From NCBI RefSeq assembly GCF_001270745.1, contig NZ_LFXL01000010.1, positions 186,001-250,000 of the forward strand: 64,000 nt of DNA. The letters are read 5' to 3'. The notes beneath the pieces are model-generated. The model saw nothing but the letters and a program-made list of their open reading frames with translations, was not told the DNA's origin and did no database searches. Within the stretch, counting starts at the first letter, position 1. Each line of letters starts with the position of its first letter. Made by a program: the position numbers and the translations under genes. This stretch comes from Jiangella muralis (GTDB taxonomy: Bacteria; Actinomycetota; Actinomycetes; Jiangellales; Jiangellaceae). Shown piece after piece: positions 4,087-20,490 of the stretch.

Positions 4087-4104
4087 GACCCGGCGGCCGG
4101 CTGG

Positions 4105-4138
4105 ACGGGCGCGACCTCACCCCCTGGGTCGCGCCCGT
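4105..4138 (+). terminator. Stem-loop after the first gene
   Basis: Perfect 12-bp arms (ACGGGCGCGACC and its complement) around a 10-nt loop, 18 nt after the stop codon at 4086. It has no T-tract, as is common for GC-rich actinobacterial terminators. It may only attenuate transcription into the copper-protein gene, which starts 67 nt downstream. Confidence 0.6.
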
Positions 4139-4204
4139 TCCGGCGGGCCTCGGCCGCCGGGACGCACGGCGTCTCGCGGATTCACGAAAGAGGTGCGGCA
4201 CTTC

Positions 4205-7200: not shown

Positions 7201-7354
7201 GCGGGGCATGCTGACCCGCACCGCGGCCGCGTCCGAGGTCGGCACGACGCCGCCCCCGGCCGAGCCGGTGGCGGCCAAGGCGCCGGCCTCGGCCGAGCTC
7301 GCCGCCGAGCCGTCGATCGAGGAGGCGCTCGCGCAGCACGCCGGGCACCACTAG
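4205..7354 (+). CDS. Secreted cupredoxin with eight Ig-like repeats and the shared C-terminal module
   Basis: A 1049-residue protein. The ATG at 4205 is preferred over the upstream in-frame extension because an AAAGAGG Shine-Dalgarno lies just before it and a signal/anchor helix (about residues 30-45) follows. Residues about 75-178 form a plastocyanin/azurin-like domain with a complete type-1 copper site: His114, Cys160, His165, Met168 (motif YCAFPGHGQM). Residues 179-930 are eight Ig-like repeats (OmpL47-like, each opening DDTTPP and containing YRATDNAGN). Residues 933-1013 are the module shared with the upstream gene, and a short tail ends in QHAGHH. The likely role is extracellular electron transfer, with the repeats as a long stalk. 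Pairing with the upstream sugar dehydrogenase is inferred from adjacency and the shared module. Confidence 0.85.
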   Translation: MLLRLWADLTGRHPSTGRSGRRRVTPQGVVVAVLATALMAVGLVPTAAALRGAPAPTPSSVSGNAETAAAQTLTWTADNSVTAYRSAPTTAVAGPTTIVFENSTATGNTSGMPHTLTFETGDPQYNQDVDLNITANPFDPNGGRYEVEVNLTPGVYRFYCAFPGHGQMTGLLVVTGGPDDTTPPEVSAQVTGDQNADGDYVGAATVTVNATDAGTGVDTVEYNLDNGGWQPYTAPVQVTAIGAHTLQYRATDNAGNTSPAGSAQFTVVEPEPDDTTPPDISAAVTGEQDDQGNYIGSATVTVTATDAQSGVASVEYNLDNGGWQPYTAPVQVTAIGAHTVQYRATDNAGNVAPVESVPFTVVEPEPDDTTPPDISAAVSGDQNADGDYVGSATVTVTATDAQSGVASVEYSLNGAAFAPYTAPVVVSAIGAHTVQYRATDNAGNVAPVEAVQFTVVEPEPDDTTPPEVAAAVTGEQNDQGDYVSSATVTITATDAQSGVASIAYALDGGSFQPYTAPVVVTALGDHTVQYRATDNAGNTSPVGSAAFTVVEPEPDDTTPPDISATVAGDQNADGDYIGSATVTVTASDAQSGVASVEYNLDGAGFTAYTAPLVVSALGDHTVQYRATDNAGNVAPVESVAFTVVEPEPDDTTPPDVSAAVAGDQNPDGAYVGSATVTITATDAESGVASIAYALDGGSFQPYTAPVVVAAVGDHVVQYRATDNAGNTSPVESAAFTVVAPEPDDTTPPETSAAVSGSQNPDGDYIASATVTVTASDAQSSVASIEYNLNGAGFTAYTAPVVVSSIGDHTVQYRATDNAGNVAPVESVAFTVVAPEPDDTTPPEVAAAVTGEQNADGAYVDSATVTVTATDAQSGVASVVYSLDDGAFVPYTAPVVVGAVGEHTVRYRATDNAGNESAVGSVTFTVVERDGDACPDSDTRPTVVIGGLDSLVANVDRGDGCTINDLIDDEGEWPNHGQFVRHVTEVANQLVTDGVITTRERGMLTRTAAASEVGTTPPPAEPVAAKAPASAELAAEPSIEEALAQHAGHH
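4739..6994 (+). repeat. Eight in-frame 282-bp tandem repeats
   Basis: The GACGACACCAC start of each unit falls at 4739, 5021, 5303, 5585, 5867, 6149, 6431 and 6713, a period of exactly 282 bp (94 codons) with no indels. Each unit encodes one Ig-like domain. The uniform length and near-identical blocks point to recent expansion or gene conversion. Repeat number may vary between strains, and short-read assemblies could miscount it. Confidence 0.95.
7001..7243 (+). other. Shared 81-residue module, copy 2
   Basis: Residues 933-1013 of the cupredoxin protein, the same length and same two Cys as copy 1 at 3181-3423. The central stretch is nearly identical in DNA as well as protein, indicating duplication or conversion between the neighbouring genes. 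Copy 1 is internal (before DUF1080), whereas copy 2 is nearly C-terminal. Confidence 0.8.
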
Positions 7355-8308: not shown

Positions 8309-9289
8309 ATGGCGTTGTCGACGGCGTTCACGGACCTGTTCGGCCTGCGGCACCCGATCGCGCTCGCGCCGATGGGCGGCTCGGCCGGTGGCGCGCTGGC
8401 CGCGGCGGTGTCGCAGGGCGGCGGCTTCGGGATCCTGGGCGCCGCGTTCGGCGACCCCGACTGGCTGGACCGCGAGGCGCCGATCGTCGCGTCGCGGCCC
8501 GGGCTGCCGTGGGGCGTCGGGTTCCTCACCTGGGGGATCCAGGACGGCGCGGTGGAGCACGCCCTGGAGCACGGCCCGCGGGCCGTCATGCTGTCCTTCG
8601 GCGACCCCACCCGGTACGCCGAGCGGATCCGTGCGGCCGGTGCGGCGCTGATCCTGCAGGTCACCGACCTCGAGGAGGCCAAGCAGGCCGTCGACCTGGG
8701 CGCCGACGTCATCGTGGCGCAAGGCACCGAGGCCGGTGGGCACGGTGCCCGGCACGGCCGGTCCACGCTGCCGTTCGTGCCCGTCGTCGTGGACCTGGCG
8801 GCACCGGTGCCGGTGCTGGCCGCCGGCGGCATCGCCGACGGCCGCGGCGTGGCCGCCGCCCTGGCCCTGGGCGCGGCCGGCGCGCTGATCGGCACCCGGT
8901 TCCAGGCGACGGCCGAGGCGCTGGTCGACCCCGTCATCGCCCAGGCGATCGTCGACGGCTCGGCCGAGGACACCGAGCGCAGCACCGTCCTCGACCTCGC
9001 CCGCGGCTCCGACTGGCCGTCACGGTATGCGGCGCGCACGCTCGGCCATCCCTACCTCGACCGATGGCACGGTCGGGAGGCCGACCTCGCCGCCGACGCC
9101 CATGCCCGGCAGGACTACCCGGACGACGTCGCCCGCGGCATGATCCCGCCGCTCCCCGTCTGGGCCGGCGAGGGCGTCGACCTCATCACCGACCTCCCCG
9201 CCGCCGGCGACCTCGTCGCCACCCTGGCCGCCCAGGCCGAGGACGCCCTGGCCCGAGCGGGCCGCCACGCGCCGTCGTCGGCGAGGTAA
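8309..9289 (+). CDS. Nitronate monooxygenase / NAD(P)H-dependent flavin oxidoreductase
   Basis: 326 residues, close to the 310-370 usual for the family. It is a TIM-barrel FMN enzyme: the N-terminal HPIALAPMGG strand carries the flavin-site Met, GTEAGGHGARHG (about 143-154) includes the conserved His of 2-nitropropane dioxygenase-type enzymes, and AAGGIADGRG and GTRF (about 171-200) bind the FMN phosphate. It probably oxidises alkyl nitronates such as propionate-3-nitronate, a detoxification role, although many relatives have unknown substrates. A GGAG lies close to the ATG. The gene is monocistronic, followed directly by a tRNA. Confidence 0.88.
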   Translation: MALSTAFTDLFGLRHPIALAPMGGSAGGALAAAVSQGGGFGILGAAFGDPDWLDREAPIVASRPGLPWGVGFLTWGIQDGAVEHALEHGPRAVMLSFGDPTRYAERIRAAGAALILQVTDLEEAKQAVDLGADVIVAQGTEAGGHGARHGRSTLPFVPVVVDLAAPVPVLAAGGIADGRGVAAALALGAAGALIGTRFQATAEALVDPVIAQAIVDGSAEDTERSTVLDLARGSDWPSRYAARTLGHPYLDRWHGREADLAADAHARQDYPDDVARGMIPPLPVWAGEGVDLITDLPAAGDLVATLAAQAEDALARAGRHAPSSAR

Positions 9290-9308: not shown

Positions 9309-9385
9309 GGGGCGGTAGCTCAGCCGGTTAGAGCAGGGGACTCATAATCCCTGGGTCGTGGGTTCGAGTCCCACCCGCCCTACCA
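9309..9385 (+). tRNA. tRNA with CAT anticodon (Met elongator or Ile2)
   Basis: A 77-nt cloverleaf with encoded CCA at 9383-9385. The acceptor stem GGGGCGG pairs with CCGCCCT (terminal G-U), the D arm is GCTC/GAGC, and the anticodon loop is CTCATAA with CAT at 9343-9345. The T arm GTGGG/CCCAC carries TTCGAGT, and the discriminator is A. The anticodon is shared by elongator tRNA-Met and the lysidine-modified tRNA-Ile2; the sequence alone does not let me choose safely. It is not an initiator, because the acceptor ends in a G-U pair and the anticodon stem lacks the three G-C pairs. Confidence 0.93.
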
Positions 9386-9703: not shown

Positions 9704-9719
9704 GGTTCACCGGTCAACC
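9704..9719. promoter_or_regulatory. Predicted GntR operator, copy 1 (autoregulatory)
   Basis: GGTTCACCGGTCAACC, a near-palindrome made of two GGTNNACC half-elements, ends 14 nt before the GntR ATG. A TAGGAT -10 hexamer at 9690-9695 puts the transcription start close to the first operator base, so a bound dimer would block transcription. The matching perfect palindrome is in the divergent promoter at 17633-17648. FCD-type GntR proteins typically bind GGT-N-ACC-like palindromes. Confidence 0.72.
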
Positions 9720-9733
9720 TTCGAGAGGATGTC

Positions 9734-10477
9734 ATGGGCGACCTTGCACCGCTGCCCGATCGGCCGCTGCGCCGGCGCGAACCGGCGACGGTCGAGCTGA
9801 CGCGGGAGTTGCTGACGTATCTCGCGTCCGGCGACGTGACGCCTGGGCAGCGGCTTCCGGGTGAGCGCGCGCTGAGCGAAGCGCTGGGGGTCGGCCGCGC
9901 GGCGCTGCGGGAGGCCATCAAGTCGCTCATCCTGCTCGGCGTGCTGGAGCAGCGTCAGGGCGACGGCACGTACCTGGCGAAAGAGCCGTCGAGCCTGCTG
10001 CCGAAGGTCATCGAATGGGGCGTGCTGCTCGGGAACAACCAGCTCACCGACCTCATCGAGGCCCGCCAGCTGCTCGAGGTGACCTTGGCGCCGCAGGCGG
10101 CGCGCAACCGCAGCGCGGTGGCGGCGGCCCGGCTGACGCAGCTGATCGAGGAGATGCGGGCGGCCAGTCACGACTACGACCGGTACATCGAGGCCGACGT
10201 GCAGTTCCATCTGGAGTTGGCCGCGGCGTCGGGCAACGAGGTGCTGACGGGTGTGCTGAGCAACATCCGGTCGCTGATCGAGGCCTGGGCGCACCGGGTC
10301 ATCGAGTCCGCGCAGGAGACGGAGTCGTCGCTGGCCATGCACGTGCCCGTCCTCGACGCCGTCATCGAGCAGGACGAGGACCGGGCACGTGCGGCCATGC
10401 AGGCGCTCATGGACCGGGCGACCCGGCGGCTGCGGCTGTCGCTGCCCGCGGCCGAGCAGCGCGCCGTCGAGAGCTGA
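9734..10477 (+). CDS. FCD-domain GntR transcriptional regulator
   Basis: 247 residues. A winged-helix GntR domain (about 18-85: PGQRLPGERALSEALGVGRAALREAIKSL then the wing QRQGDGTYL) is followed by an all-helical FCD ligand domain (about 105-235). It has the expected Asp/His metal or ligand positions (YIEADVQFHLELAAASGN and a later MHVPVLDAV). The ATG has a GAGAGG Shine-Dalgarno at good spacing. FCD regulators usually sense small organic acids or sugar acids. It lies head to tail against the minus-strand catabolic operon (10481-17524) and almost abuts it. The GGTNNACC-type sites here and at 17633 suggest that it represses itself and both divergent arms of the locus. Confidence 0.9.
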   Translation: MGDLAPLPDRPLRRREPATVELTRELLTYLASGDVTPGQRLPGERALSEALGVGRAALREAIKSLILLGVLEQRQGDGTYLAKEPSSLLPKVIEWGVLLGNNQLTDLIEARQLLEVTLAPQAARNRSAVAAARLTQLIEEMRAASHDYDRYIEADVQFHLELAAASGNEVLTGVLSNIRSLIEAWAHRVIESAQETESSLAMHVPVLDAVIEQDEDRARAAMQALMDRATRRLRLSLPAAEQRAVES

Positions 10478-10480
10478 GTG

Positions 10481-11263
10481 TCACCAGAGCGTCTGGCCGC
10501 CCTCGATCACCAGGTTGTGGCCGGTCATGTAGTCGGACGCGGGGCTGGAGAGGTACACGATGCCGCCCTGGAGATCCTCGACCTCGCCCAACCGGCCGGC
10601 CGGGATGGAACGCACCCACTCGTCGACGAGCGGGGCGAGGTCGGGCGACTGCTCGATCAGCGCGGTCCGGATGATTCCCGGCGACATGCAGTTCACCCGG
10701 ATGCCGCGCGGTGCCCACTCGGCGGCCAGGGTGCGGGTCAGCGTGACGACGGCGCCCTTCGACGCGTTGTACGAGACCTGCTTCTGCGGGTGCGGGACGA
10801 TGAGCGAGGCCATCGACGCGGTGTTGACGATCTTGCCGTAGCCGTGCGGGAACATGGCCCGCGCCTCGGCCTGGCAGGCGAGGAACACGCCCCGGGTGTT
10901 CACCGCGAAGACGCGGTCCCACTCGTCCAGCGTGGTCTCCTCCGCCGCCGAGTTGAGGTTGATCCCGGCGTTGTTGACGGCGATGTCGAGCCGGCCGAAG
11001 TGCGCGACGACCCGGGCGACGAAGCCGTCGATCTGCTCGGGGTCGGAGGCGTCGGCGCCGACGGCGAGCGCGGCGATCCCGTTCTCGCCGAGCTCGCCGA
11101 CGACCTGCTCGGCACGGTGCGGGTCGAGGTCGATCACCGCCACGTTCGCGCCGGCCTCGCCGAGGGCGTGCGCGAAGGCCCGCCCGATCCCCATGCCGGC
11201 GCCGGTGATCAACGCGGTGCGTCCGGTGAGGTCGAACCGGCCGAGGATCCCGCTCCTGCTCAC
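10481..11263 (-). CDS. SDR-family oxidoreductase (last gene of the acid-sugar operon)
   Basis: 260 residues, the classical SDR size. The GTG at 11263 overlaps the aldolase stop (GTGA) and has AAGGAGG eight bases upstream, so the longer frame is not real. The NAD(P) motif TGAGMGIG is at about 20-27; VIDLD after the second strand suggests NAD preference. NNAG (about 95), a catalytic Ser in NTASM, and YNASK (about 165) complete the active site. It probably interconverts a hydroxy and keto group of a sugar acid or its aldol product. The substrate is not predictable from sequence alone. Confidence 0.9.
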   Translation of the reverse strand: MSRSGILGRFDLTGRTALITGAGMGIGRAFAHALGEAGANVAVIDLDPHRAEQVVGELGENGIAALAVGADASDPEQIDGFVARVVAHFGRLDIAVNNAGINLNSAAEETTLDEWDRVFAVNTRGVFLACQAEARAMFPHGYGKIVNTASMASLIVPHPQKQVSYNASKGAVVTLTRTLAAEWAPRGIRVNCMSPGIIRTALIEQSPDLAPLVDEWVRSIPAGRLGEVEDLQGGIVYLSSPASDYMTGHNLVIEGGQTLW

Positions 11264-12075
11264 TGTGCTGCCTCCTTGACGTCGTGACGGGCGCCGTCCA
11301 GCGCCGCGGCCGCCGCCACGAGCTCGCGGGCCGCCCGGCCGAACAGGTCGATCGAGGTGATGAGGAACATCGACGCACCCAGAGCGTGCCATTCCTTGAT
11401 CTCGTGTGCGGACTTGACCAGCACCGCGGCGGTGGTCCGCTCGCTGCGGACGACCTCGGCGACGACCTGCTCGACGGCGGCGCGCACCCGCGGGTGGTCG
11501 CCCTGTCCAGGGAAGCCGAGCGACACGGACAGGTCGCCCGGCCCCACCCAGACGCCGTTGACGCCAGGAGTTGCGACGACCTCGGCGGCGTTGCGCACCC
11601 CGGCCTCGTCCTCGACCTGCACGACGACGACGGTCTGTGCGGCGGCCCGGGCGAGGTACTCGTCGATCGGCTCGTCGCCGTACCGGCCGCCGCGGGTGCT
11701 CACCGCGAGACCACGGCGGCCGCGCGGCGGGTAGTGGGCGCTGGCGACCGCCTCGCCGGCCTCGGCGCCGTCGGCGACGTGCGGGATGATCACCCCCGCG
11801 GCGCCGGCGTCGAGCGCCCGGAGGATGTCGAGCGGGGAGTTCGACCCGACCCGGACCAGTGCGTCGATGCCGGCGCTGCCGGCGGCGCGCAGGTGGTGCT
11901 CGAGCAGCAGGTCGTCGCCGGCCCCGTGCTCGGTGTCGATCACCACCAGGTCGAACCCGAGGTACCGGGCCTGCTCGACCAGGGCAGGGTTGGGCATCTT
12001 GACGATCAGCCCGAGCACCGGGTCGCGGTCGCGTAGGCGGTCCGCGAACGAACGGCTGCGGTTCGGGTCAGGCAC
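11260..12075 (-). CDS. HpcH/HpaI-family aldolase
   Basis: 271 residues with a GTG start at 12075 and AAGGAG upstream; it overlaps the kinase stop by 8 bp. The class II pyruvate aldolase fold is evident: VVIDTEHG supplies the general base/metal region, RVGSNSP an Arg, GAAGVIIPHV the beta-strand with the substrate loop, YPPRGRRG the conserved substrate Arg, and QVED the metal-binding Glu, with a downstream GPGDLS. Relatives (GarL, RhmA, HpaI) cleave 2-keto-3-deoxy acids to pyruvate plus an aldehyde. In this operon it likely splits a keto-acid derived from the imported compound. Beside a DUF1537 kinase one more often finds a class II (OtnC) aldolase, so this pairing is unusual. Confidence 0.88.
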   Translation of the reverse strand: MPDPNRSRSFADRLRDRDPVLGLIVKMPNPALVEQARYLGFDLVVIDTEHGAGDDLLLEHHLRAAGSAGIDALVRVGSNSPLDILRALDAGAAGVIIPHVADGAEAGEAVASAHYPPRGRRGLAVSTRGGRYGDEPIDEYLARAAAQTVVVVQVEDEAGVRNAAEVVATPGVNGVWVGPGDLSVSLGFPGQGDHPRVRAAVEQVVAEVVRSERTTAAVLVKSAHEIKEWHALGASMFLITSIDLFGRAARELVAAAAALDGARHDVKEAAQ

Positions 12076-13492
12076 TGGGGTCTCCTTCTGCGAGCCGGGT
12101 GACGGCGACCGCGAGGCTTGCGCGGTCGCCGACGTTGCCGGGGAACACGACGTAGGGCAGCTCAGGCCGGGAGCCGTCGAGCAGCCGCCATACCGGCACC
12201 ATCCCCGGGAACAACTGGCCGAGGACGACGGCCCGGGTCGCGCCGAGCGCCCGCGCGGGGACGTCGTGCGAGGTGATCCCGCCCTTCGCGACGAGGAAGC
12301 CCAGCCGCGTCGACTCGGCGATCCGGCGCACTGTCTCGGTGAGGGCGGCCGCCACCCGCCGGCTGGCGCCGATCGGGTTCTCGCCAGCGGGCGCGGCGAC
12401 GACCTGCCGGGAGGTCTGCAGCACAGTCGTGACGGACGGCACGGCGGCCCGGACGGCGGCGGCCGCCCGCCCGATCTCGGCCTCCAGCGCCGCCTCGTCG
12501 CCGGCGACGACCACCCCGGCGTCGAGCTCGACGAGCGAGACCGGCCGGCTCCGCCGCAACTCGTCCACCTGGGCGTTGGTGAGCCCGGTGTGGCTGCCGA
12601 CGACGACCAGCCCGCTCGCCGCCGCGCCGGCGCGACCCGGCCACGGCTTCGGCAGCGGCTGCCCGGCGAGTGCCCGTACCGCCGTAGGGCCGGTCCGATA
12701 GACGACCTGCAGGCCGTCCTCTTCGGCCAGCGCGCAGCCGGCCGCCACCGCGGCAAGGTCACCGCCGGTCACCGCCTCGGCGATCCAGACGTCGTCGTGG
12801 TGTCCGTGACGTAGTTCGTCGCGGACCCGCTCGGGGCCGGACCCGCTGCGCAGCCGCGCCAGGTCCAGCACCCGCACCTGGGCGACGTCGTCCCGCAACC
12901 GGCGGCGCACCCAGGCGGCCAGCTCCACGTCGTCGTAGCCGAACGCCGGGTCCGCGGCGTACTCGGTCGCAGCGGCCGGGACCAGCACGCCGTCGCCGAC
13001 CCACTGCACGCCGCGGGCGGTGAACCGGCCCGCCTCGACGAAGGCCGGCGCGAACACGACCCGCTGCCGCTGCGGGGCGCCGGCGGCAGCCCGGACGGCC
13101 GCCACCTCCTCCCGGACGTGCCCACGCAGGGTCGAATCGCTCCGGCTCACGTACCGCACCGGACGGCCCAGCCGCTCGCCGACCCGGCCGGCCGCGGCCG
13201 CCGCGTGCGACGTCACCCGGCTCGCCTCGGACGCCGTCAGCGCGCGGCTGTTCGTCAGCACGAAGGCGAGGTCGTGGCCCCGCGCCGCCCAGGCCAGGTC
13301 ATCCGCGGTCCACTCCCCCATGACGACCGGCACGTCGCGGACGCACTGGGTGCCGGTGGGGTCGTCGTCGATCACGACGGTCCAGGTGCGGCGCCGCACG
13401 GCGGCGGCCCGAACCGCGGCCAGGTCGTCCGCCTCGCGCCGTGCGGTGGGCGGCCGGTCCAACTCGGCGATCGTCACGGCCGGCCTAGTCAT
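12068..13492 (-). CDS. Four-carbon acid sugar kinase family protein (DUF1537/OtnK-type)
   Basis: 474 residues. The ATG at 13492 overlaps the end of the M24 gene (ATGACTAG). The N-terminal domain has the family signature DDDPTGTQ (about 40-50) and RSDSTLRGH. The C-terminal nucleotide-binding domain has SHTGLTNAQ, a KGGITSHD motif and VFPGNVGD near the end. Family members phosphorylate D-threonate, D- or L-erythronate and related acids, or 3-oxo-tetronates, before aldol or retro-aldol cleavage. It is the central catabolic enzyme of the locus and the best hint that the substrate contains a C4 sugar acid. No OtnI isomerase, PdxA2-like dehydrogenase or OtnC aldolase is present in the window, so the route must differ from known tetronate pathways. 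Confidence 0.87.
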   Translation of the reverse strand: MTRPAVTIAELDRPPTARREADDLAAVRAAAVRRRTWTVVIDDDPTGTQCVRDVPVVMGEWTADDLAWAARGHDLAFVLTNSRALTASEASRVTSHAAAAAGRVGERLGRPVRYVSRSDSTLRGHVREEVAAVRAAAGAPQRQRVVFAPAFVEAGRFTARGVQWVGDGVLVPAAATEYAADPAFGYDDVELAAWVRRRLRDDVAQVRVLDLARLRSGSGPERVRDELRHGHHDDVWIAEAVTGGDLAAVAAGCALAEEDGLQVVYRTGPTAVRALAGQPLPKPWPGRAGAAASGLVVVGSHTGLTNAQVDELRRSRPVSLVELDAGVVVAGDEAALEAEIGRAAAAVRAAVPSVTTVLQTSRQVVAAPAGENPIGASRRVAAALTETVRRIAESTRLGFLVAKGGITSHDVPARALGATRAVVLGQLFPGMVPVWRLLDGSRPELPYVVFPGNVGDRASLAVAVTRLAEGDPSA

Positions 13493-14681
13493 GGACGACC
13501 GTGTAGCCGCGGCCGATGTCCCCGGGCGCCTCATATCCGTCCGCCGTCACGATGAGGGTGTCCTCCAGCTTCACGAAGCCGACCACCGGATCCTCGATCC
13601 AGGTCTCGATGGACAGCACGTTGCCCTCGGCCAGCGGGGTGTTCGCGTGGTCCGCCGGGTAGGGCACCGGGCCGGTCGCCGTCAGCCGCGGGACCTCGTG
13701 GGTGATCAGGCCCATGCCGTGCGCCAGGAACGTCATGCTCGCGGCGTGCGGGCTGGCAGCCACCAGGTCGGCGGCGATCTCGTAGATCGCCGAACCCGGG
13801 TTGCCGGCCCGGACCACGGTCCGGACCTGCTGCTGGACGTGCTCGATCTCGGCCATCAGGTCGACCATGCGGTCGGTCGGCTCCCCGTGGACCGCCATCC
13901 GGGCGAGATCACCGATGTAGCCGTCGTACATGCCGCCGCTGTCGAGCGAGATCACGGTGCCGGGGCGCCAGGGTTCCTGCGACGGCGCCCGGTTGAGGCT
14001 CGGCCCGGTGGCGATCAGGCAGTAGTCGAAGACCAGCCCGCGGCTGGTCTGCTGGCGGCGGAACTCCTCCACGATCTGGTGCCTGGTGAAGCCGGGGCGC
14101 ACTGTGGCGAAGGTCGCCAGCATCGAGTCGATGATCCCCTCCGACGCCTTCCGGACCAGCGCCAGCTCCGCGGCGGACTTCTGCCCGCGCAAGGACTCCA
14201 GGATCGGGTGCGCGTCGACGAACTCGGCGTCCGGCAGCTCGCGCCGCAGCTCGTCCAGCGCGTCCGCGGGGATGAAGGCGTACTCGACGGCGATGCGCCC
14301 GGTCGCGGCCCCGCGACGGGTGATCGCGGCGGCCGCCGTGCGAGCCGAGTCGAGGCTCGACCAGCTCACGTTCTGGATCTCGCCGACCCAGAGCGGGTGG
14401 ACGTCGGTGCCCCAGTCCTCGTTGCCGCAGCCAACGTAGAACGAGTCCTCCGGCCGGCCCGCGACGTACCCGACGACGGGCAGGTAGCGGCTGACCCCGA
14501 TGGCGTCCATGCCGGCGAAGAAGAAGTAGCGGTAGCCGCCGAGCAGGTACTGGACGTTGTGCCGCGTGGTCGCGAGGACAACGTCGATCCCGGCCTCCTG
14601 CAGCAGTTGGTCGAGTCTCTCGGCCTGGAACGGTGCGGGCACCTGACCTCCTGGTGGGCGATGCGACGATCGGTCAGCCAT
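13485..14681 (-). CDS. M24-family metallopeptidase / creatinase-like hydrolase
   Basis: 398 residues from ATG 14681, which overlaps the binding-protein stop; a GTG at 14642 with AGGAGGT just before it (385 residues) is an equally good start. The creatinase N-terminal domain (about 20-155) is followed by a pita-bread domain with a full metal set: the two Asp in SLDSGGMYDGYIGD, His in LAHGMGL, Glu in IETWIED and Glu in VKLEDT. Xaa-Pro peptidases, creatinase and other C-N hydrolases share this fold. Its place in a sugar-acid operon argues for hydrolysing an amide or N-linked conjugate of the imported compound rather than general peptide turnover (inference). Confidence 0.85.
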   Translation of the reverse strand: MADRSSHRPPGGQVPAPFQAERLDQLLQEAGIDVVLATTRHNVQYLLGGYRYFFFAGMDAIGVSRYLPVVGYVAGRPEDSFYVGCGNEDWGTDVHPLWVGEIQNVSWSSLDSARTAAAAITRRGAATGRIAVEYAFIPADALDELRRELPDAEFVDAHPILESLRGQKSAAELALVRKASEGIIDSMLATFATVRPGFTRHQIVEEFRRQQTSRGLVFDYCLIATGPSLNRAPSQEPWRPGTVISLDSGGMYDGYIGDLARMAVHGEPTDRMVDLMAEIEHVQQQVRTVVRAGNPGSAIYEIAADLVAASPHAASMTFLAHGMGLITHEVPRLTATGPVPYPADHANTPLAEGNVLSIETWIEDPVVGFVKLEDTLIVTADGYEAPGDIGRGYTVVHD

Positions 14682-15687
14682 GGTTCTCCGAGCAGTCGGG
14701 CACCTCGGGTCGCGCGGTGCCGGCCTCGATCTCCTCGATCAGCGCCAGCACCTGCGCGGCGGTGTCCTCGGTGATCAGCGGCTGCGACGGGATCTCGCAG
14801 TCGGCGGCAACGGCGTCGTCGGCCGCGAGCCGGCTGGCCACCTGGATCGCCGTCGCGCCGAAGATCTCGCTCGGGTAGCTGGTGCTGGCGTCCTGAATCT
14901 CGCCGTTGGAGATCAGCTCCAGGTTGGCGGTCTGCCCGTCGCCGCCGATCACCGCCAGGTCCGCGCCCGCGGCGCGCAGCGCCTCGATCCCGCCGAGCAG
15001 CGCGATGTCGGTGTCGCTGAAGATGCCGGCCAGCTCCGGATGAGCGGTCAGCATGTTCTCGGTGAGCTTGCGCGCCTTGGTCGGGTCACACTGGGTCTCG
15101 CCGATCTGGACCTGGGTGATGTTGGCCGGCAGCCCCTCCGCGAACGCGGAGCGCCGCCCGTCCATCTGGGCGTTGCCGATCCCGCAGCCGATCACGCCCA
15201 GCTCGCCGCCCTCGGGCAGCAGCTCACCCATGTACTCCCCCGCGGCCCGGTAGCCGGCGGACTCGTCGTAGGCGATGTGCACCGTCGGCTCGAGGTCGGG
15301 GATCTCCTGGATCATCGAGATCACGTCGATCCCAGCCTCCTCCGCCTTGTTCAGGACGGGCGACAGCTGGGCCGCGTATTCGCCGGGGTCGACCACGATG
15401 ACGTCGAACCGCTGGGTGATCGCGTCCTCGACCTTCGCGATGATCGGCGTCGGGTCACGCCGCTGCGGGCCCGCCTGGACGTCGACCGTCACGCCCAGCC
15501 GGTCGGCCTCGGCCCGGGCGCCGGCCGCCTCACGGCTGTACGCCTCGTCGTTGAGCGTGGGGAGCAGGTACATGACCTTGATCTCGGTGTCCGTCGACGC
15601 CTCGCCGCGCGCGGAACATCCGGCGAGGCCGCCGGCCACGGCGCCGGCGCAGACGACCGCCGTTGCGGTCCTCATCAGCTGGTTCAT
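14674..15687 (-). CDS. Sugar ABC transporter substrate-binding lipoprotein (RbsB-like)
   Basis: 337 residues. A lipobox LAGC at about 21-24 makes it a lipoprotein. The mature part is a Peripl_BP_4 type I fold: the first strand IKVMYLLPTLND, a VIVVDPGEYAAQL second strand, the hinge region VIGCGIGNAQMDGR, and IFSDTDIALLGGIEAL then VIGGDGQ. It is one of the few genes here with a strong Shine-Dalgarno (AAGGAAGG) before ATG. It delivers a pentose- or sugar-acid-like ligand to the permease encoded by the next two genes upstream in the transcript. The binding pocket is not predictable at this level. Confidence 0.92.
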   Translation of the reverse strand: MNQLMRTATAVVCAGAVAGGLAGCSARGEASTDTEIKVMYLLPTLNDEAYSREAAGARAEADRLGVTVDVQAGPQRRDPTPIIAKVEDAITQRFDVIVVDPGEYAAQLSPVLNKAEEAGIDVISMIQEIPDLEPTVHIAYDESAGYRAAGEYMGELLPEGGELGVIGCGIGNAQMDGRRSAFAEGLPANITQVQIGETQCDPTKARKLTENMLTAHPELAGIFSDTDIALLGGIEALRAAGADLAVIGGDGQTANLELISNGEIQDASTSYPSEIFGATAIQVASRLAADDAVAADCEIPSQPLITEDTAAQVLALIEEIEAGTARPEVPDCSENHG

Positions 15688-15701
15688 GGGTGCCCTTCCT
15701 T

Positions 15702-16469
15702 TTATCGTTGCGGCGATCCGACGATCATCGAGACGAGCCGGTGCTCGTTCTCCTTGCTGGCGGCGGCGTTCCCGACGACCCGGCCCTGCCGCAGGACGGT
15801 GGCCCGGTCGGCGATCTGGAGGACGTGCTCCATGTTGTGGGAGATCAGCACGACCGACATCCCTCGCTCCGGCAGCGACCGCACCAGCTCGATCACCTGC
15901 CGGCTCTCCCGGATGCCGAGCGCCGCGGTGGGCTCGTCCAGCACGACGACCCGGCTGGCGAACGCCGCCGCCCGGGCCACCGCGACCGCCTGCCGCTGGC
16001 CGCCGGACATCAGGCCGATCGGCTGGCGCGGGTCGGGGATGGTGACCTGGAGCTCGGCCGACGCCGTCTTCCAGGCCGCGAGCATCTGACGATTGCGCAG
16101 GTAGCCCAGCGGCCCGAGCCAGCGCGGTGTGCGGTGCTCGCGGCCCATGAACATGTTCGCGAGGACGTCGAGGTTGTCGAAGACCGCGAGGTCCTGGTAG
16201 ACGGTCTCGATCCCGGCGCCGCGCGAGTCCGCGGGGCTGCGGAAGTGCACCGCCTCCCCGTCGATGCGCAGCTCGCCCGCGTCCAGTTGGTGCACGCCGG
16301 CGATGACCTTGACCAGGGTCGACTTCCCGGCCCCGTTGTCGCCGAGCAGCGCGACGATCTCACCCTCGTACAGTTGGAAGTCGACGCCGTTCAAGGCGGT
16401 GACGTGGCCGAACGTCTTGTACCCGCCGGTGATCTGCAGCAGCGGCGCGGTGGTCGTCGCCGAGTTCAT
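15702..16469 (-). CDS. Sugar ABC transporter ATP-binding protein
   Basis: 255 residues and a single nucleotide-binding domain, unlike the duplicated RbsA. The start ATG at 16469 overlaps the permease stop by 4 bp. Walker A GDNGAGKST is at 43-51, the Q-loop at VYQDLAVF, the signature LMSGGQRQAV at about 152-161, Walker B VVVLDEPTAAL at about 173-183 and the switch His in LISHNM. It resembles FrcA-type ATPases of CUT2 importers, working as a homodimer with the permease at 16466-17524. Confidence 0.93.
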   Translation of the reverse strand: MNSATTTAPLLQITGGYKTFGHVTALNGVDFQLYEGEIVALLGDNGAGKSTLVKVIAGVHQLDAGELRIDGEAVHFRSPADSRGAGIETVYQDLAVFDNLDVLANMFMGREHRTPRWLGPLGYLRNRQMLAAWKTASAELQVTIPDPRQPIGLMSGGQRQAVAVARAAAFASRVVVLDEPTAALGIRESRQVIELVRSLPERGMSVVLISHNMEHVLQIADRATVLRQGRVVGNAAASKENEHRLVSMIVGSPQR

Positions 16470-17524
16470 CGTTCCACCTCCAGCGCGGTCAGCCGCTTCA
16501 CGCGTTCCTCGAGCCGGCGGCGGATCACGTCGAGCTCGAGCGCGGCGAGCACGATGACCCCGACGGCGACCTGCTGCATGTACGGGCTCACGCCGAGCAG
16601 GTCCAGGCCGTTGCGGATGGTGCCGAGGATCAGCGCTCCGACCAGCACGTTCACGACGGTCCCGCGGCCGCCGAACAGGCTCGCGCCGCCGATGACGACG
16701 GCGATGATCGAGTCCAGCTCGGCGCCCGTTCCGGCCAGCGGGGTCGCGGTGTTGGTGCGCCCGGCGGCGATGATCCCGGCGCACGCGGCGGTGACCCCGG
16801 AGATGACGAACGCCGCCATCGTGATCCGGCCGACGGGCAGGCCCATTCGCGTGGCGCCCTCCGGGTTGCCACCCAGCGCGTAGAGCCACCGGCCCCACTG
16901 CGTCCGGGTCGTGACGTACCAGAGCAGCAGCCCGAGCGCGCCGACGAGCAGCACGGGCGTCGGCACCGGGCCGAGTTCGCCGCCACCGATCGTCGTGATC
17001 AGCTCCGGCACGCCGACGACGGCGGTGCCGTCGGTGAGCAGCTGGGCCGCTCCGGCCGCCGCGCCGAGCGTCGCCAGCGTGACGATGAACGGCTGCGGCA
17101 GCCGGCCCCAGACGATCACGGCGCCGTTGATCGTCCCGATCAGCGCACCGCCGAGCAGCGCGAGCAGGAGGAACTGCCAGCCGTTGCCGGTCCCGCCGAC
17201 GACTGCGGCGAACACCACCGAGAACCCGATGACGGAGCCGACCGAGATGTCGATGCCCCTGATGAGCACGACGATCAACTGGCCGAGCGCCAGAGCCATC
17301 ACGATCGAGCTCTGCGCACCGAGGTTCTGCAGGTTGCCGGAGGTCAGGAAGTACGGCGAGGCCACGGTGAAGACCACCGCGAGGATCGCCAGCAGCAGCG
17401 TCGGGCCCAGGCGGATCACCGCCAGCAGCAGCCGCGCGGAGGCGGCCTGCTGGCCGTCACCCGGCGGTGCGGGCGCGTGCTCGGTGCCTGGGTCGGAGCG
17501 ACGCTCGATGAACGCTCGGATCAA
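16466..17524 (-). CDS. Sugar ABC transporter permease (CUT2, RbsC-like)
   Basis: About 352 residues and 9-10 predicted membrane helices. The TTG at 17524 is preferred because GAGAGG sits eight bases before it; an ATG at 17578 would add 18 residues without a ribosome site. Conserved features of BPD_transp_2 permeases: GIDISVGSVIGF after the third helix, QPFIVTLATLGA, ALGGNPEGATRMGLPV (coupling helix region) and GGRGTVVNVLVGAL. It is the first gene of the seven-gene minus-strand operon (permease, ATPase, binding protein, M24, kinase, aldolase, SDR), in which every junction but one overlaps or is shorter than 20 bp. Confidence 0.9.
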   Translation of the reverse strand: MIRAFIERRSDPGTEHAPAPPGDGQQAASARLLLAVIRLGPTLLLAILAVVFTVASPYFLTSGNLQNLGAQSSIVMALALGQLIVVLIRGIDISVGSVIGFSVVFAAVVGGTGNGWQFLLLALLGGALIGTINGAVIVWGRLPQPFIVTLATLGAAAGAAQLLTDGTAVVGVPELITTIGGGELGPVPTPVLLVGALGLLLWYVTTRTQWGRWLYALGGNPEGATRMGLPVGRITMAAFVISGVTAACAGIIAAGRTNTATPLAGTGAELDSIIAVVIGGASLFGGRGTVVNVLVGALILGTIRNGLDLLGVSPYMQQVAVGVIVLAALELDVIRRRLEERVKRLTALEVER

Positions 17525-17632
17525 TGGTGTCCCTCTCGGGTCATGGAGTGCCGGGCGCGGGAGCCGGGACGGCGCCATGGCAGCCGCAGTGGATGTCGTC
17601 GTAGGCGGCACCATAGAGTTTCGGCCACAATT

Positions 17633-17648
17633 GGTCAACCGGTTGACC
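17633..17648. promoter_or_regulatory. Predicted GntR operator, copy 2 (perfect palindrome)
   Basis: GGTCAACCGGTTGACC is a perfect 16-bp palindrome, again two GGTNNACC units. It lies between the divergent permease and DegT genes and overlaps the -35 hexamer of the DegT promoter, so one bound dimer could control both arms. Its near twin is in front of the GntR gene at 9704-9719. Confidence 0.82.
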
Positions 17649-17672
17649 GATCCTGTTCATGCTCCGTACGCT
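17643..17672 (+). promoter_or_regulatory. Promoter of the DegT-amidohydrolase operon
   Basis: TTGACC (17643-17648), an 18-bp spacer, then TACGCT (17667-17672). Seven bases later is GTG 17680, which predicts a leaderless transcript starting at or next to the start codon. The -35 hexamer is the right half of the GntR palindrome. Confidence 0.6.
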
Positions 17673-17679
17673 GGCCGAC

Positions 17680-18957
17680 GTGACGATGGAACTTGCGATC
17701 GAGGGCGGCCCGGCCGCCTTCGGACATGAAACCCCTCGGTATCCGAGCTTCTCGGCAGCGATCCTGGAGCGGCTGGTCCAGGTGATCAGCACCGGGCCGA
17801 CGCAAGGGCTCTCCAAGCACCATCCGGTCGTCGGAGAGTTCGAGCGGGCGCTGGCCGAGTTCCACGAGGTGCCGCACTGCCTGAGCGCGAGCTCCGGGCA
17901 CGGCGCGCTGCAGTCCGCGCTGATCGGGCTGGAGATCGCCGACGGCGATCACGTCATCACGTCGCCGTACTCCTGGGGCGCGTCGGTGTCGTGCATCCTC
18001 CACAACGGCGCGGTCCCCGTCTTCTGCGACGTGAGCGCGGAGACCGGCCTCATCGACCCGGGCAGCCTGGAGCGGGCACTGACGCCGCACACCCGCGCCG
18101 TCCTGGTGCCGCACCTGTATGGACAGGTCAGCGACATGACCGCGATCCTCGACTTCGCCGACCGCCACGGCCTGGCCGTGATCGAGGACGGTAGCCAGGC
18201 GCACGGTGCCCGCCACCGCGGCCGGCGCCTCGGGTCACTCGGCGATGCCGCCGGCTTCTCGATCAACGGCGTCAAGCCGCTGGCGACGACCGAGGGCGGC
18301 TACCTCGTGACCCGTCACGAGTCCGTCTACTGGACGCCGACCATCAGCGCACAGCACGCCGGGCGCGGCGAACTGATCGGGCGCGCCAGTGAACCGGGCT
18401 TCCCCGACGACCTGCGCGACCTCGTCGACACGCTCGTCTACACCTACCGGCCCAACCTCGCCTCGCTGATCCTGGCGCTGGACCAGCTGCCGCACGTCGA
18501 CGAGCTCAACGCGAACCGGCGCGGCAACGCCGAGGCACTGCGGAAGAAGATCGACGACCTCGACCTGTTCTCGATGCCGGCCTATCCGGCCGACGACACG
18601 CCCGTCTACCACATGGTCACAATCAACGTCCGCGTCCCGGAGTGGCGCGACGCGATCCTGGGGGCGCTGCAGGCCGAGGGCGTCCCGGCGGTCACCTACG
18701 TGGCCCGCGGCCTCAACGAGTCGCCGCGGCTGAGCCCGTCGTACGCCGGGCCGAAGGTGATGTGGACCGGCACCGTCCGGCGCTCCGGGTACGACGCGAC
18801 GGCGGCGGACCTCCCAGGTATGCGGACGAAGGTGGCCGCGTCGATCGAGATCCCGTGGAACTACGTCGAGGAGAACGAGGACCTGACCACGGACCTGGCG
18901 CTCGCCTTCGCGAAGATCCAGGCCAACCCCGGCGCGCTGCGGCGGCTCGCCTCATGA
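17680..18957 (+). CDS. DegT/DnrJ/EryC1/StrS-family PLP aminotransferase
   Basis: About 425 residues. GTG 17680 is chosen because it sits seven bases after a TACGCT -10 box; ATG 17686 and ATG 17659 are alternatives, and homology-like sequence begins at LAIEGGPAAFG. Fold type I features: SASSGHGALQSAL (phosphate-binding turn), ITSPYSWGASVSC, IEDGSQAHGA with the PLP-nitrogen Asp, and FSINGVKPLATTEGG with Schiff-base Lys199. Most relatives aminate keto-sugars; some act in catabolism. It forms a two-gene operon with the amidohydrolase (ATGA overlap). In a catabolic locus it could remove or transfer an amino group from an amino-sugar acid (inference). Confidence 0.88.
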   Translation: MTMELAIEGGPAAFGHETPRYPSFSAAILERLVQVISTGPTQGLSKHHPVVGEFERALAEFHEVPHCLSASSGHGALQSALIGLEIADGDHVITSPYSWGASVSCILHNGAVPVFCDVSAETGLIDPGSLERALTPHTRAVLVPHLYGQVSDMTAILDFADRHGLAVIEDGSQAHGARHRGRRLGSLGDAAGFSINGVKPLATTEGGYLVTRHESVYWTPTISAQHAGRGELIGRASEPGFPDDLRDLVDTLVYTYRPNLASLILALDQLPHVDELNANRRGNAEALRKKIDDLDLFSMPAYPADDTPVYHMVTINVRVPEWRDAILGALQAEGVPAVTYVARGLNESPRLSPSYAGPKVMWTGTVRRSGYDATAADLPGMRTKVAASIEIPWNYVEENEDLTTDLALAFAKIQANPGALRRLAS

Positions 18958-19997
18958 CCAGCCGGCTCGCTCGCGCCGCGGCCGGGCCGCACGACGGCTA
19001 CCGGTCCCGCTTCCACGGGCAGATCGTCGACGTCCACACGCACTTCTCCGTCGGCGCCGGCGACGCGGCCGTCGCGGCCATGCGGGCCGCGGGCCTCGGC
19101 GGGCTGGTCAACCTCGTCGGCGCCTGGCCGCCGCAACCGTTCGAGGAGTGGCGGGCCGGCTGGAGCGGCGACCGCGCGGTCGCCGGGATGGTCCTCTTCC
19201 ACGCTCCTGACCTCGCGGGCATCGGCTCCCCCGGCTTCGAGCGGGACCTCGCCGACGACGTCCGGCGCGCCTTCGAGCTGGGTGCCCGCGGCCTCAAGAT
19301 CTGGAAGCAGCTGGGCCTCTGGCTCACCGACGCGAGCGGCGACCGGGTCGCCGTCGACGACGAGCGGCTGGCGCCGATGTGGGACTGCGCCGCACGGCAC
19401 CGGCGTCCGGCCGGCATCCACATCGCCGACCCGCAGCCGTTCTTCCAGCCCGTCGCGCCGGACAACCCGCGCTACACCGAGCTGCTCGAACGACCCGACT
19501 GGTCCTTCGCCGGCGACGAGTTCCCTCGCCTGGAGACGCTGCACGACGAGTTCGAGCGGCTCGTGTCGGCGCATCCGGCGACGGACTTCGTCGCACTGCA
19601 CGGCGGCTGCTTCATCCCGTTCGATCGCCTGCACCGGATGATGCGGAGGTACCCGAACCTCTGGCTGGAGACGTCGGCACGCGTCCTCGACCTCGCCCAG
19701 GAGCCGGCGGCGGCCCGGGCGCTGCTGTGCGACTTCGCCGACCGGGTGCTCTTCGGCAGCGACTACGCGCGCATGGCCGGGTGGCTGGACCAGCCGCTGC
19801 CCGGCGAGTATCCCGACCTCACCCAGGCCTTCTACGCGCGGAATCTGGCCTTCTTCGAGACCGGCCTGGACGGGATCGGCAACCCGTTCCCGTTCCAGTC
19901 CGAGGCGACGGTCCGAGGCCTGGACCTGCCCGATGATGTCCTGGAGCAGCTGTACTTCCGGAACGCACAGCGGCTGCTGGGCCTGCCGGCTACCTGA
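18954..19997 (+). CDS. Amidohydrolase-family (PF04909-type) metal-dependent hydrolase
   Basis: 347 residues; the ATG overlaps the DegT stop. The TIM-barrel amidohydrolase-2 signature is present: VDVHTHFS (metal HxH) near residue 26, GLKIWKQLG on a middle strand, IHIADPQPFF (metal His), FVALHGGCF (His) and VLFGSDYAR near the C-terminus (catalytic Asp). Family members are decarboxylases or C-O/C-N hydrolases acting on carboxylated or amide substrates. With the M24 protein it gives the locus two candidate hydrolases. Its stop overlaps the end of the convergent FBP gene by 8 bp. Confidence 0.87.
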   Translation: MTSRLARAAAGPHDGYRSRFHGQIVDVHTHFSVGAGDAAVAAMRAAGLGGLVNLVGAWPPQPFEEWRAGWSGDRAVAGMVLFHAPDLAGIGSPGFERDLADDVRRAFELGARGLKIWKQLGLWLTDASGDRVAVDDERLAPMWDCAARHRRPAGIHIADPQPFFQPVAPDNPRYTELLERPDWSFAGDEFPRLETLHDEFERLVSAHPATDFVALHGGCFIPFDRLHRMMRRYPNLWLETSARVLDLAQEPAAARALLCDFADRVLFGSDYARMAGWLDQPLPGEYPDLTQAFYARNLAFFETGLDGIGNPFPFQSEATVRGLDLPDDVLEQLYFRNAQRLLGLPAT

Positions 19998-20490
19998 GCA
20001 CGGAGTCGACGAACGCGGCGAGGTTGCGGCGGGCGCGGGCGATCTTCTCCTCGACGGGGGTGGTCTCGATGGGCTGGACGGCGACGACGGCCTTCTTGCG
20101 GCCGCGGACGTAGAGCGAGCAGGCGAGGTCGGCGCAGAGGTACTGGCCGACGCTGTTGCCCTGGCGGCCGGCCTCGCCGGCGCGGCGCGCGGTCATGAGC
20201 GACACGCCCCCGCCGGTGTGCGCCGTCATGCAGAGCGAGCACATGCTGCTGTGCGTGAAGCCCCGGCCGGACTTCGGGTTCGCCCGCAGCGTGATGCCGA
20301 GCAGGCCGCCGTCGTCGCGGGTGGTGACGAGGTAGCCGCGGTCGGGCGCGCCGGGGTCGCGCCAGCCGAGGAAGTCGAGGTCGTCCCAGGGCTGCTCGTC
20401 GAGGTCGCGCGGGACGGCCAGCCGCTTCGCCTCGCCCTTGGAGCAGTTGACGAAGGAGCGGCGGATGTCGTCCTCGGTGACCGGCCTCAT
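19990..20490 (-). CDS. FBP-domain protein (EF-G-binding-type treble-clef zinc finger)
   Basis: 166 residues. The ATG at 20490 is seven bases after a TAGCGT -10 box (complement of 20498-20503), so the mRNA is probably leaderless. The C-terminal half holds two Cys pairs, CSLC and CADLAC, with a basic SLYVRGRKK segment, typical of the FBP_C zinc finger whose staphylococcal and mycobacterial relatives bind elongation factor G and protect it from fusidic acid. The N-terminal part is a helix (MRPVTEDDIRRSFVN) followed by a beta-rich WRDPG..DRGYLV region. It is unrelated in function to the catabolic genes. Confidence 0.85.
   Translation of the reverse strand: MRPVTEDDIRRSFVNCSKGEAKRLAVPRDLDEQPWDDLDFLGWRDPGAPDRGYLVTTRDDGGLLGITLRANPKSGRGFTHSSMCSLCMTAHTGGGVSLMTARRAGEAGRQGNSVGQYLCADLACSLYVRGRKKAVVAVQPIETTPVEEKIARARRNLAAFVDSVLR

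Follow-up and report, generated by a model that had tools for sequence, protein, structure and literature searches.

The locus at positions 9734-19997 of the window (the whole 64,000-nucleotide stretch of contig NZ_LFXL01000010.1 of Jiangella muralis that was analyzed, part of a 7.27-Mb actinobacterial genome of ~72% G+C) raises the question of whether a DUF1537-family acid-sugar kinase, an HpcH/HpaI aldolase, an M24-family metalloenzyme, a DegT aminotransferase and an amidohydrolase, encoded together with a dehydrogenase, a sugar importer and a regulator, serve a single catabolic pathway and, if so, which one. All ten genes reported here by a first-pass annotation, made from the sequence alone, are present with intact open reading frames (ORFs) at the coordinates of Table 1. 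The locus is probably one carbohydrate-acid catabolic regulon. The fuller account, in which a substrate induces the genes and they import and degrade a carbohydrate acid or one of its derivatives along the lines proposed below, carries moderate confidence. Its parts belong to known families and its plan resembles known acid-sugar pathways, but the gene set itself is not one of the known threonate/erythronate pathways. No paper on this gene combination was found in the open-licence literature, and an earlier description may exist elsewhere.

Seven of the genes form a leftward operon (in order from the centre: permease, ATPase, binding protein, M24 enzyme, DUF1537 kinase, HpcH aldolase and SDR dehydrogenase), while the DegT and amidohydrolase genes form a divergent rightward pair and gntR is convergent with the SDR gene. 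The palindromic composite site GGTYRACCGGTYRACC occurs exactly once in the genome, between the two divergent transcripts. Five further genomic sites differ from it by a single mismatch; one of these lies directly before gntR, and the remaining ones that could be inspected fall within unrelated coding sequence. Across 15 cassette loci (this one and its relatives, described below), the site was found 26 times with no more than a single mismatch, versus at most 0.1 expected per locus. Named cassette genes follow 23 of these sites at a distance of 11-335 bp, no site falls within a mapped cassette gene, and the other three are all in one Streptomyces locus (L055). Versions of the operator precede cassette genes in nearly all related loci, and in the present locus the shared operator stands before all of the transcripts. 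These operator sites, before the transcripts here and before cassette genes elsewhere, are the strongest argument for assigning the ten genes, including the DegT-amidohydrolase pair, to one predicted regulon, jointly controlled by two copies of one operator. The operator makes the boundary of the regulon explicit, such that the substrate could be found by a simple inducer or ligand screen.

The core of this regulon is retained as a unit far beyond the genus. The full locus was found in 2 of 11 congeners, at 90-98% protein identity, and the other congeners lack it. It is directly preceded by a tRNA-Met gene (9309-9385 of the window), and each of the twelve genomes of the genus has the gene that lies downstream (19990-20490). 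Of the congeners that lack the locus, G012 has the left neighbor, tRNA-Met and the homologue of the downstream gene within 5 kb (L186), and G006 has tRNA-Met ~1.6 kb from that homologue (L180). Since these markers are much closer together in congeners without it, the locus appears to occupy a variable site beside a tRNA gene. In a phylum-wide sample, one additional carrier was detected (G293), whose locus (L026) encodes homologues of the M24 enzyme (49% identity), kinase (48%), HpcH aldolase (46%), SDR dehydrogenase (71%) and GntR regulator (53%), together with a class II aldolase. Between the M24 and kinase genes of that locus (8310-8990), pieces of an alpha/beta hydrolase are found in more than one frame, apparently the remains of a decayed gene.

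A wider scan, in which ~85,000 species genomes were searched with the M24 alignment, yielded ten further loci with an M24 protein of at least 55% identity (L052-L061, from Kribbella, Dactylosporangium, Streptomyces, Actinomadura, Pseudarthrobacter and Frondihabitans). The kinase, the HpcH aldolase and a GntR regulator of the same type were each present in nine of the ten, and the SDR dehydrogenase (at 70-76%) and a CUT2-like importer were each present in six; the Pseudarthrobacter cassette is partial. In the same scan, none of the ~70 loci with an M24 protein at or below 53% carried the kinase, and clustering of their neighbors gave mixed contexts. The expectation of the first-pass annotation that the genes form one catabolic unit was upheld for the core, in that the neighborhoods in related genomes keep most of the core together rather than splitting it. 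On comparative grounds, the M24 enzyme, DUF1537 kinase, HpcH aldolase, SDR dehydrogenase and FadR-type GntR regulator, usually with a sugar importer, are an old unit distributed over at least six actinobacterial families. Such a spread suggests a common soil or plant compound, the breakdown of which is not yet described. Class II ketose-bisphosphate-type aldolases, Gfo/Idh/MocA dehydrogenases and beta-lactamase-like esterases, as well as a sugar transporter of the MFS type, occur among the partners in the sister loci. Searches of plasmids with the kinase and with the DegT protein gave no match at strict cut-offs, a plasmid search with the SDR protein recovered only relatives of 43-46%, and a single-sequence kinase scan of genome contigs gave no match.

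Table 1. Genes and operator sites of the locus (positions in the window)
Feature	Position	Strand	Basis
Operator copy GGTTCACCGGTCAACC, one mismatch to GGTYRACCGGTYRACC, 14 bases upstream of gntR	9704-9719		Genome-wide site search
FadR-type GntR regulator (GntR + FCD)	9734-10477	+	Pfam; 10 of the 11 related cassettes encode a regulator of 43-65% identity
SDR dehydrogenase, resembles gluconate 5-dehydrogenase; most conserved cassette enzyme (70-76% identity across families)	10481-11263	-	Pfam
HpcH/HpaI class II aldolase, metal and catalytic residues of pyruvate aldolases intact	11260-12075	-	Pfam, residue alignment
DUF1537 (SBD_N + NBD_C) acid-sugar kinase, KGGITS/DDDPTG clade, distinct from OtnK and DtnK	12068-13492	-	Pfam, tree
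M24B metalloenzyme, metal ligands present, N230-R231 in place of the prolidase His	13485-14681	-	Pfam, alignment
CUT2-type sugar-binding lipoprotein/periplasmic binding protein (ribose-binding-protein family)	14674-15687	-	Pfam
CUT2-type ABC ATPase, single nucleotide-binding domain	15702-16469	-	Pfam
CUT2-type permease	16466-17524	-	Pfam; start inferred
Operator GGTCAACCGGTTGACC in divergent promoter, permease/DegT	17633-17648		Only exact match in whole genome
DegT/DnrJ/EryC1/StrS aminotransferase	17689-18957	+	Pfam; 17689 is the preferred start, ORF from 17659
Amidohydro_2-family hydrolase, possible lactonase; among the genomes surveyed, seen in three species of the genus only	18954-19997	+	Pfam

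The genes are tightly packed, with overlaps of 4-8 bp at the permease/ATPase, M24/binding protein, kinase/M24, HpcH/kinase and SDR/HpcH junctions; the DegT and amidohydrolase genes overlap by 4 bp, and the sole gap in the leftward operon is the 14 bp between the binding protein and ATPase genes. The permease ORF is open to 17638, where a longer start would overlap the operator. Pfam models above cut-off were GntR and FCD, SDR, HpcH_HpaI (101.7 bits), Peptidase_M24 and Creatinase_N, DegT_DnrJ_EryC1 (219 bits) and Amidohydro_2 (56.6 bits), in addition to those of the kinase and importer. Uptake by a CUT2 system, as first suggested, is borne out by assignments for the binding protein (Peripla_BP_4), the permease (BPD_transp_2) and the ATPase (ABC_tran), the last of which has 255 residues and one domain, the double-domain form being common for CUT2. 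A PADLOC search gave no match.

The kinase carries both domains of the DUF1537 family (SBD_N, 136 bits; NBD_C, 109 bits) and the motifs DDDPTG, DSTLRG and KGGITS, and is by family a predicted acid-sugar kinase; its best NCBIfam match is D-threonate kinase, at 89.8 bits versus a cut-off of 450. In a tree of 38 rows, in which some branches are long and the fine order within the clade is unsure, the kinase fell in a clade bearing DDDPTG and KGGITS that was separated by a branch of 100/100 support from OtnK and DtnK, including Escherichia coli YgbK and the genome's own OtnK. Two earlier suggestions, that the kinase is not one of the known tetronate kinases and that its usual partners are absent, withstood examination, the latter by tblastn of the 64-kb window, which gave no match to OtnD, OtnC, OtnI or PdxA2 at E <= 1e-5. 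At the same threshold, no match to OtnD, OtnC or OtnI was obtained in cassettes L052, L053 and L056-L061; the OtnI- and OtnD-like matches in L054 and L055 belong to a glyoxylate carboligase cluster.

That cluster (L055, 16969-20573, and also in L054), which comprises genes for glyoxylate carboligase, a hydroxypyruvate-isomerase-like protein and tartronate semialdehyde reductase, adjoins the Streptomyces cassettes, and one product of the pathway may accordingly be glyoxylate or tartronate semialdehyde.

The M24 enzyme retains the five metal ligands of an M24B Xaa-Pro peptidase (D247, D258, H321, E359 and E373), all of which are invariant, as well as the second histidine. In a profile alignment, an asparagine is placed against the histidine of the PHG/PHA motif of PDB 5cdl, such that the His-Gly of prolidases is here Asn-Arg (N230-R231). 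The Asn-Arg pair was found in all 12 of the aligned cassette M24 proteins and in most other members of the subfamily tested, and all 14 of the cassette M24 proteins tested fell in one clade (96/89). Replacement of the prolidase histidine by asparagine, followed by arginine, makes an ordinary peptidase function doubtful, and from these residues the enzyme is probably not a peptidase. As supporting evidence only, a structural model of good quality (mean pLDDT, the predicted local distance difference test, 83.7), whose alignment included rows L023 and L026, was matched by fold search to prolidases, creatinase and ectoine hydrolase at ~20% identity. The ectoine hydrolase family model scored 49.1 bits versus a cut-off of 575; DoeA/EutD and creatinase share with the M24 enzyme a pita-bread fold in a catabolic operon, but identity is ~18% and the partners are different.

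Among the other enzymes, the SDR dehydrogenase has its catalytic residues (S150, Y165 and K169), and D47-E49-H50, R75, E155 and D181 of the HpcH protein align with solved aldolases, as expected of a class II pyruvate aldolase. The DegT protein has the lysine of its NGVK motif. The catalytic residues of the amidohydrolase are present (HxH, K114, H155, H215 and D269); a profile search of the PDB gave no relatives among solved structures, and an AlphaFold model from one sequence reached a pLDDT of 35.6. A relative of 33% identity lies inside a sugar-utilization operon (L161), a context compatible with either a lactonase or an amidase, and the protein may be a sugar lactonase. The earlier scheme, in which an amide or amino conjugate would be hydrolyzed by either hydrolase, is hypothetical as regards the substrate and the order of steps; with the prolidase histidine missing, the M24 enzyme may act on a bond other than an amide.

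From these assignments the following pathway is proposed. GntR would keep the regulon repressed until it binds the substrate or an early intermediate, and the CUT2 system would bring the substrate in. The amidohydrolase-family enzyme, the M24 enzyme or both would open or trim it (at a lactone, an amide or another leaving group), and the DegT enzyme would take off an amino group, the ketone-forming part that in sister loci may be played by Gfo/Idh/MocA dehydrogenases. The SDR enzyme would oxidize another hydroxyl, the kinase would phosphorylate the terminal hydroxyl of the resulting oxo-acid, and the HpcH aldolase would cleave the phosphorylated product to pyruvate or hydroxypyruvate and a (phospho)aldehyde; in sister loci, cleavage by a class II ketose-bisphosphate-type aldolase would also give dihydroxyacetone phosphate. 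The order of these steps is doubtful, and together with the substrate and the task of each hydrolase it is what we infer, whereas sequence comparison shows the regulon, the existence of the core as a unit and the families to which the enzymes belong. We further suggest, as a possibility short of an even chance, an undescribed route in which an M24-fold enzyme with the His-to-Asn change catalyzes a reaction other than peptide hydrolysis (opening of a ring or lactone, or cleavage of a C-N or C-C bond) on an oxidized carbohydrate, a third DUF1537 clade phosphorylates an oxo-acid that HpcH or class II aldolases then cleave, and the DegT-amidohydrolase pair extends the route to an amino-substituted substrate. 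If true, this would define a further functional group of DUF1537 kinases, to which the literature consulted assigns four-carbon acids and 4-hydroxythreonine as substrates, and would provide a large M24 subfamily, now annotated as Xaa-Pro peptidase, with a role in catabolism.

Several observations weigh against the proposed pathway. HpcH aldolases usually act on 4-hydroxy-2-oxo acids, and the operon encodes no dehydratase. The class II aldolase of the sister loci is missing here, though five PF01116 proteins are encoded elsewhere in the genome. Core genes are partly missing in L059 and L060, and at the thresholds used neither DegT nor the amidohydrolase was found in L052-L061 or in their genomes. 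No enzyme of the locus has a close characterized relative, and GntR is the putative operator-binding protein by virtue of conservation.

One alternative is that the locus serves the catabolism of a cyclitol or aminocyclitol, in a manner akin to iol: DegT or a Gfo/Idh/MocA enzyme would form a keto-cyclitol, the SDR enzyme would re-oxidize it, the M24 enzyme would open the ring, and the kinase and aldolase would take the roles of IolC and IolJ. The closest solved relative of the DegT protein is an L-glutamine:2-deoxy-scyllo-inosose aminotransferase, the operator also precedes Gfo/Idh/MocA genes in L059 and L061, such genes lie close to the cassettes of L056-L058, and class II aldolases of the PF01116 family, to which IolJ belongs, occur in L026, L052, L054 and L055. 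Inositol is also carried by CUT2 importers, and the general plan of importer, dehydrogenase, hydrolase, kinase and aldolase is that of the iol system. The locus itself, however, has a kinase and an aldolase of other families (no IolC- or IolJ-type protein was assigned by Pfam among the ten genes), its operon lacks IolB-, IolD- and IolE-type genes, we know of no M24 enzyme that cleaves a C-C bond, and the likeness of DegT, which is not part of the core, is at family level only. We regard this alternative as rather unlikely.

A non-orthologous version of a tetronate pathway, in which the SDR enzyme would stand in for OtnD and the HpcH aldolase for OtnC in the breakdown of four-carbon threonate or erythronate, is a distinctly poor prospect. 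The presence of a DUF1537 kinase speaks for it, as does the usual pairing of the sister kinases (L025-L037 and others) with OtnD-like dehydrogenases. Sister kinases outside the cassette show this pairing as a rule, and some of them are accompanied by a class II aldolase. On the other side are the position of the kinase outside OtnK and DtnK, the lack of any place for the M24 enzyme in this scheme, and decarboxylation of a 3-oxo acid, which to our knowledge is not known for HpcH aldolases. The genome also holds two other DUF1537 kinases apart from the locus, an OtnK beside OtnC (L041) and a DtnK beside PdxA (L042), and since both classical loci are present the classical tetronate tasks appear to be covered elsewhere. 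As summarized in PMC12540250, the L-threonate/D-erythronate pathway comprises LtnD/OtnD, OtnI, OtnK and OtnC (Zhang et al. 2016). The locus resembles it in a DUF1537 kinase that would follow an oxidation step and feed central metabolism, but has HpcH, M24 and SDR enzymes instead of OtnD, OtnI and OtnC, and a kinase of another clade. With the D-threonate pathway (DtnK and PdxA2) it shares the kinase family, and differs in having no PdxA2 in the window. The nearest kinase relatives on annotated plasmids adjoin a class II aldolase, a CUT2 importer, a dehydrogenase and a FadR-type regulator. The plasmid loci of Rhodococcus antarcticus and Deinococcus taeanensis (L156 and L157) are similar in their kinase (~40% identity), CUT2-type importer, FadR-type regulator and dehydrogenases, but the partners there are an Asp/Glu racemase, a beta-hydroxyacid dehydrogenase and a class II aldolase, and M24, HpcH and SDR proteins of the type encoded here are all missing.

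It is likewise improbable that two neighboring units share a promoter region by chance, namely the core operon and a DegT-amidohydrolase pair with a biosynthetic or scavenging task of its own. Both genes are missing from core loci elsewhere, and a DegT homologue of 49% identity in G293 (G293:C22:197073-198335; L149) lies on a contig other than that of the cassette, without the operator, among genes for a dipeptide-type ABC importer, LacI-like regulators and a Gfo/Idh/MocA-like protein. Against this, the genome's sole exact operator separates the divergent transcripts, ~40 bp from the preferred DegT start, the arrangement is retained in three species, and in a sample of 346 genomes a DegT protein of such similarity was found only here and in G293, itself a carrier of the cassette. 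The earlier placement of the pair in the same unit consequently stood as regards the shared operator and not as regards the core: by its distribution, the pair is a genus-specific addition to the predicted regulon.

Finally, a peptide-like or proline-containing substrate, with the M24 protein as an ordinary Xaa-Pro peptidase and the other genes handling its product, is highly improbable: prolidases and aminopeptidases were the best fold-search matches and Pfam assigns M24 and Creatinase_N, but asparagine takes the place of the prolidase histidine of PDB 5cdl, nearly every subfamily member tested has the Asn-Arg pair, the importer belongs to a sugar-transporting type, and sequence identity to prolidases is ~20%.

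Two other gene contexts were noted around M24 relatives. In plasmids of Rhizobium and Phyllobacterium (L049, 11437-15149; L050; L051), a relative of ~50% identity shares a conserved operon with genes for a Tm-1-like ATP-binding protein, a phosphoenolpyruvate-hydrolase-family protein and a cupin; a sugar ABC importer is encoded next to it, and no description of this operon was found. The Rhizobium plasmid loci were rejected as relatives of the cassette, having no operator, other partners and a position outside the cassette M24 clade. In Pseudarthrobacter (L059, 11175-14110), an agmatinase-family gene and a gene for a thiamine-diphosphate enzyme resembling 5-guanidino-2-oxopentanoate decarboxylase lie downstream of the M24 gene, and the hint of a guanidino compound was dropped as a single occurrence. 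Elsewhere in the window, positions 3977-7354 contain an ORF of 1125 residues with a cupredoxin-like start followed by ~8 near-identical repeats (TTPPDISAAVTGDQNADGDYVGSATVTVTATDAQSGVASVEY...).

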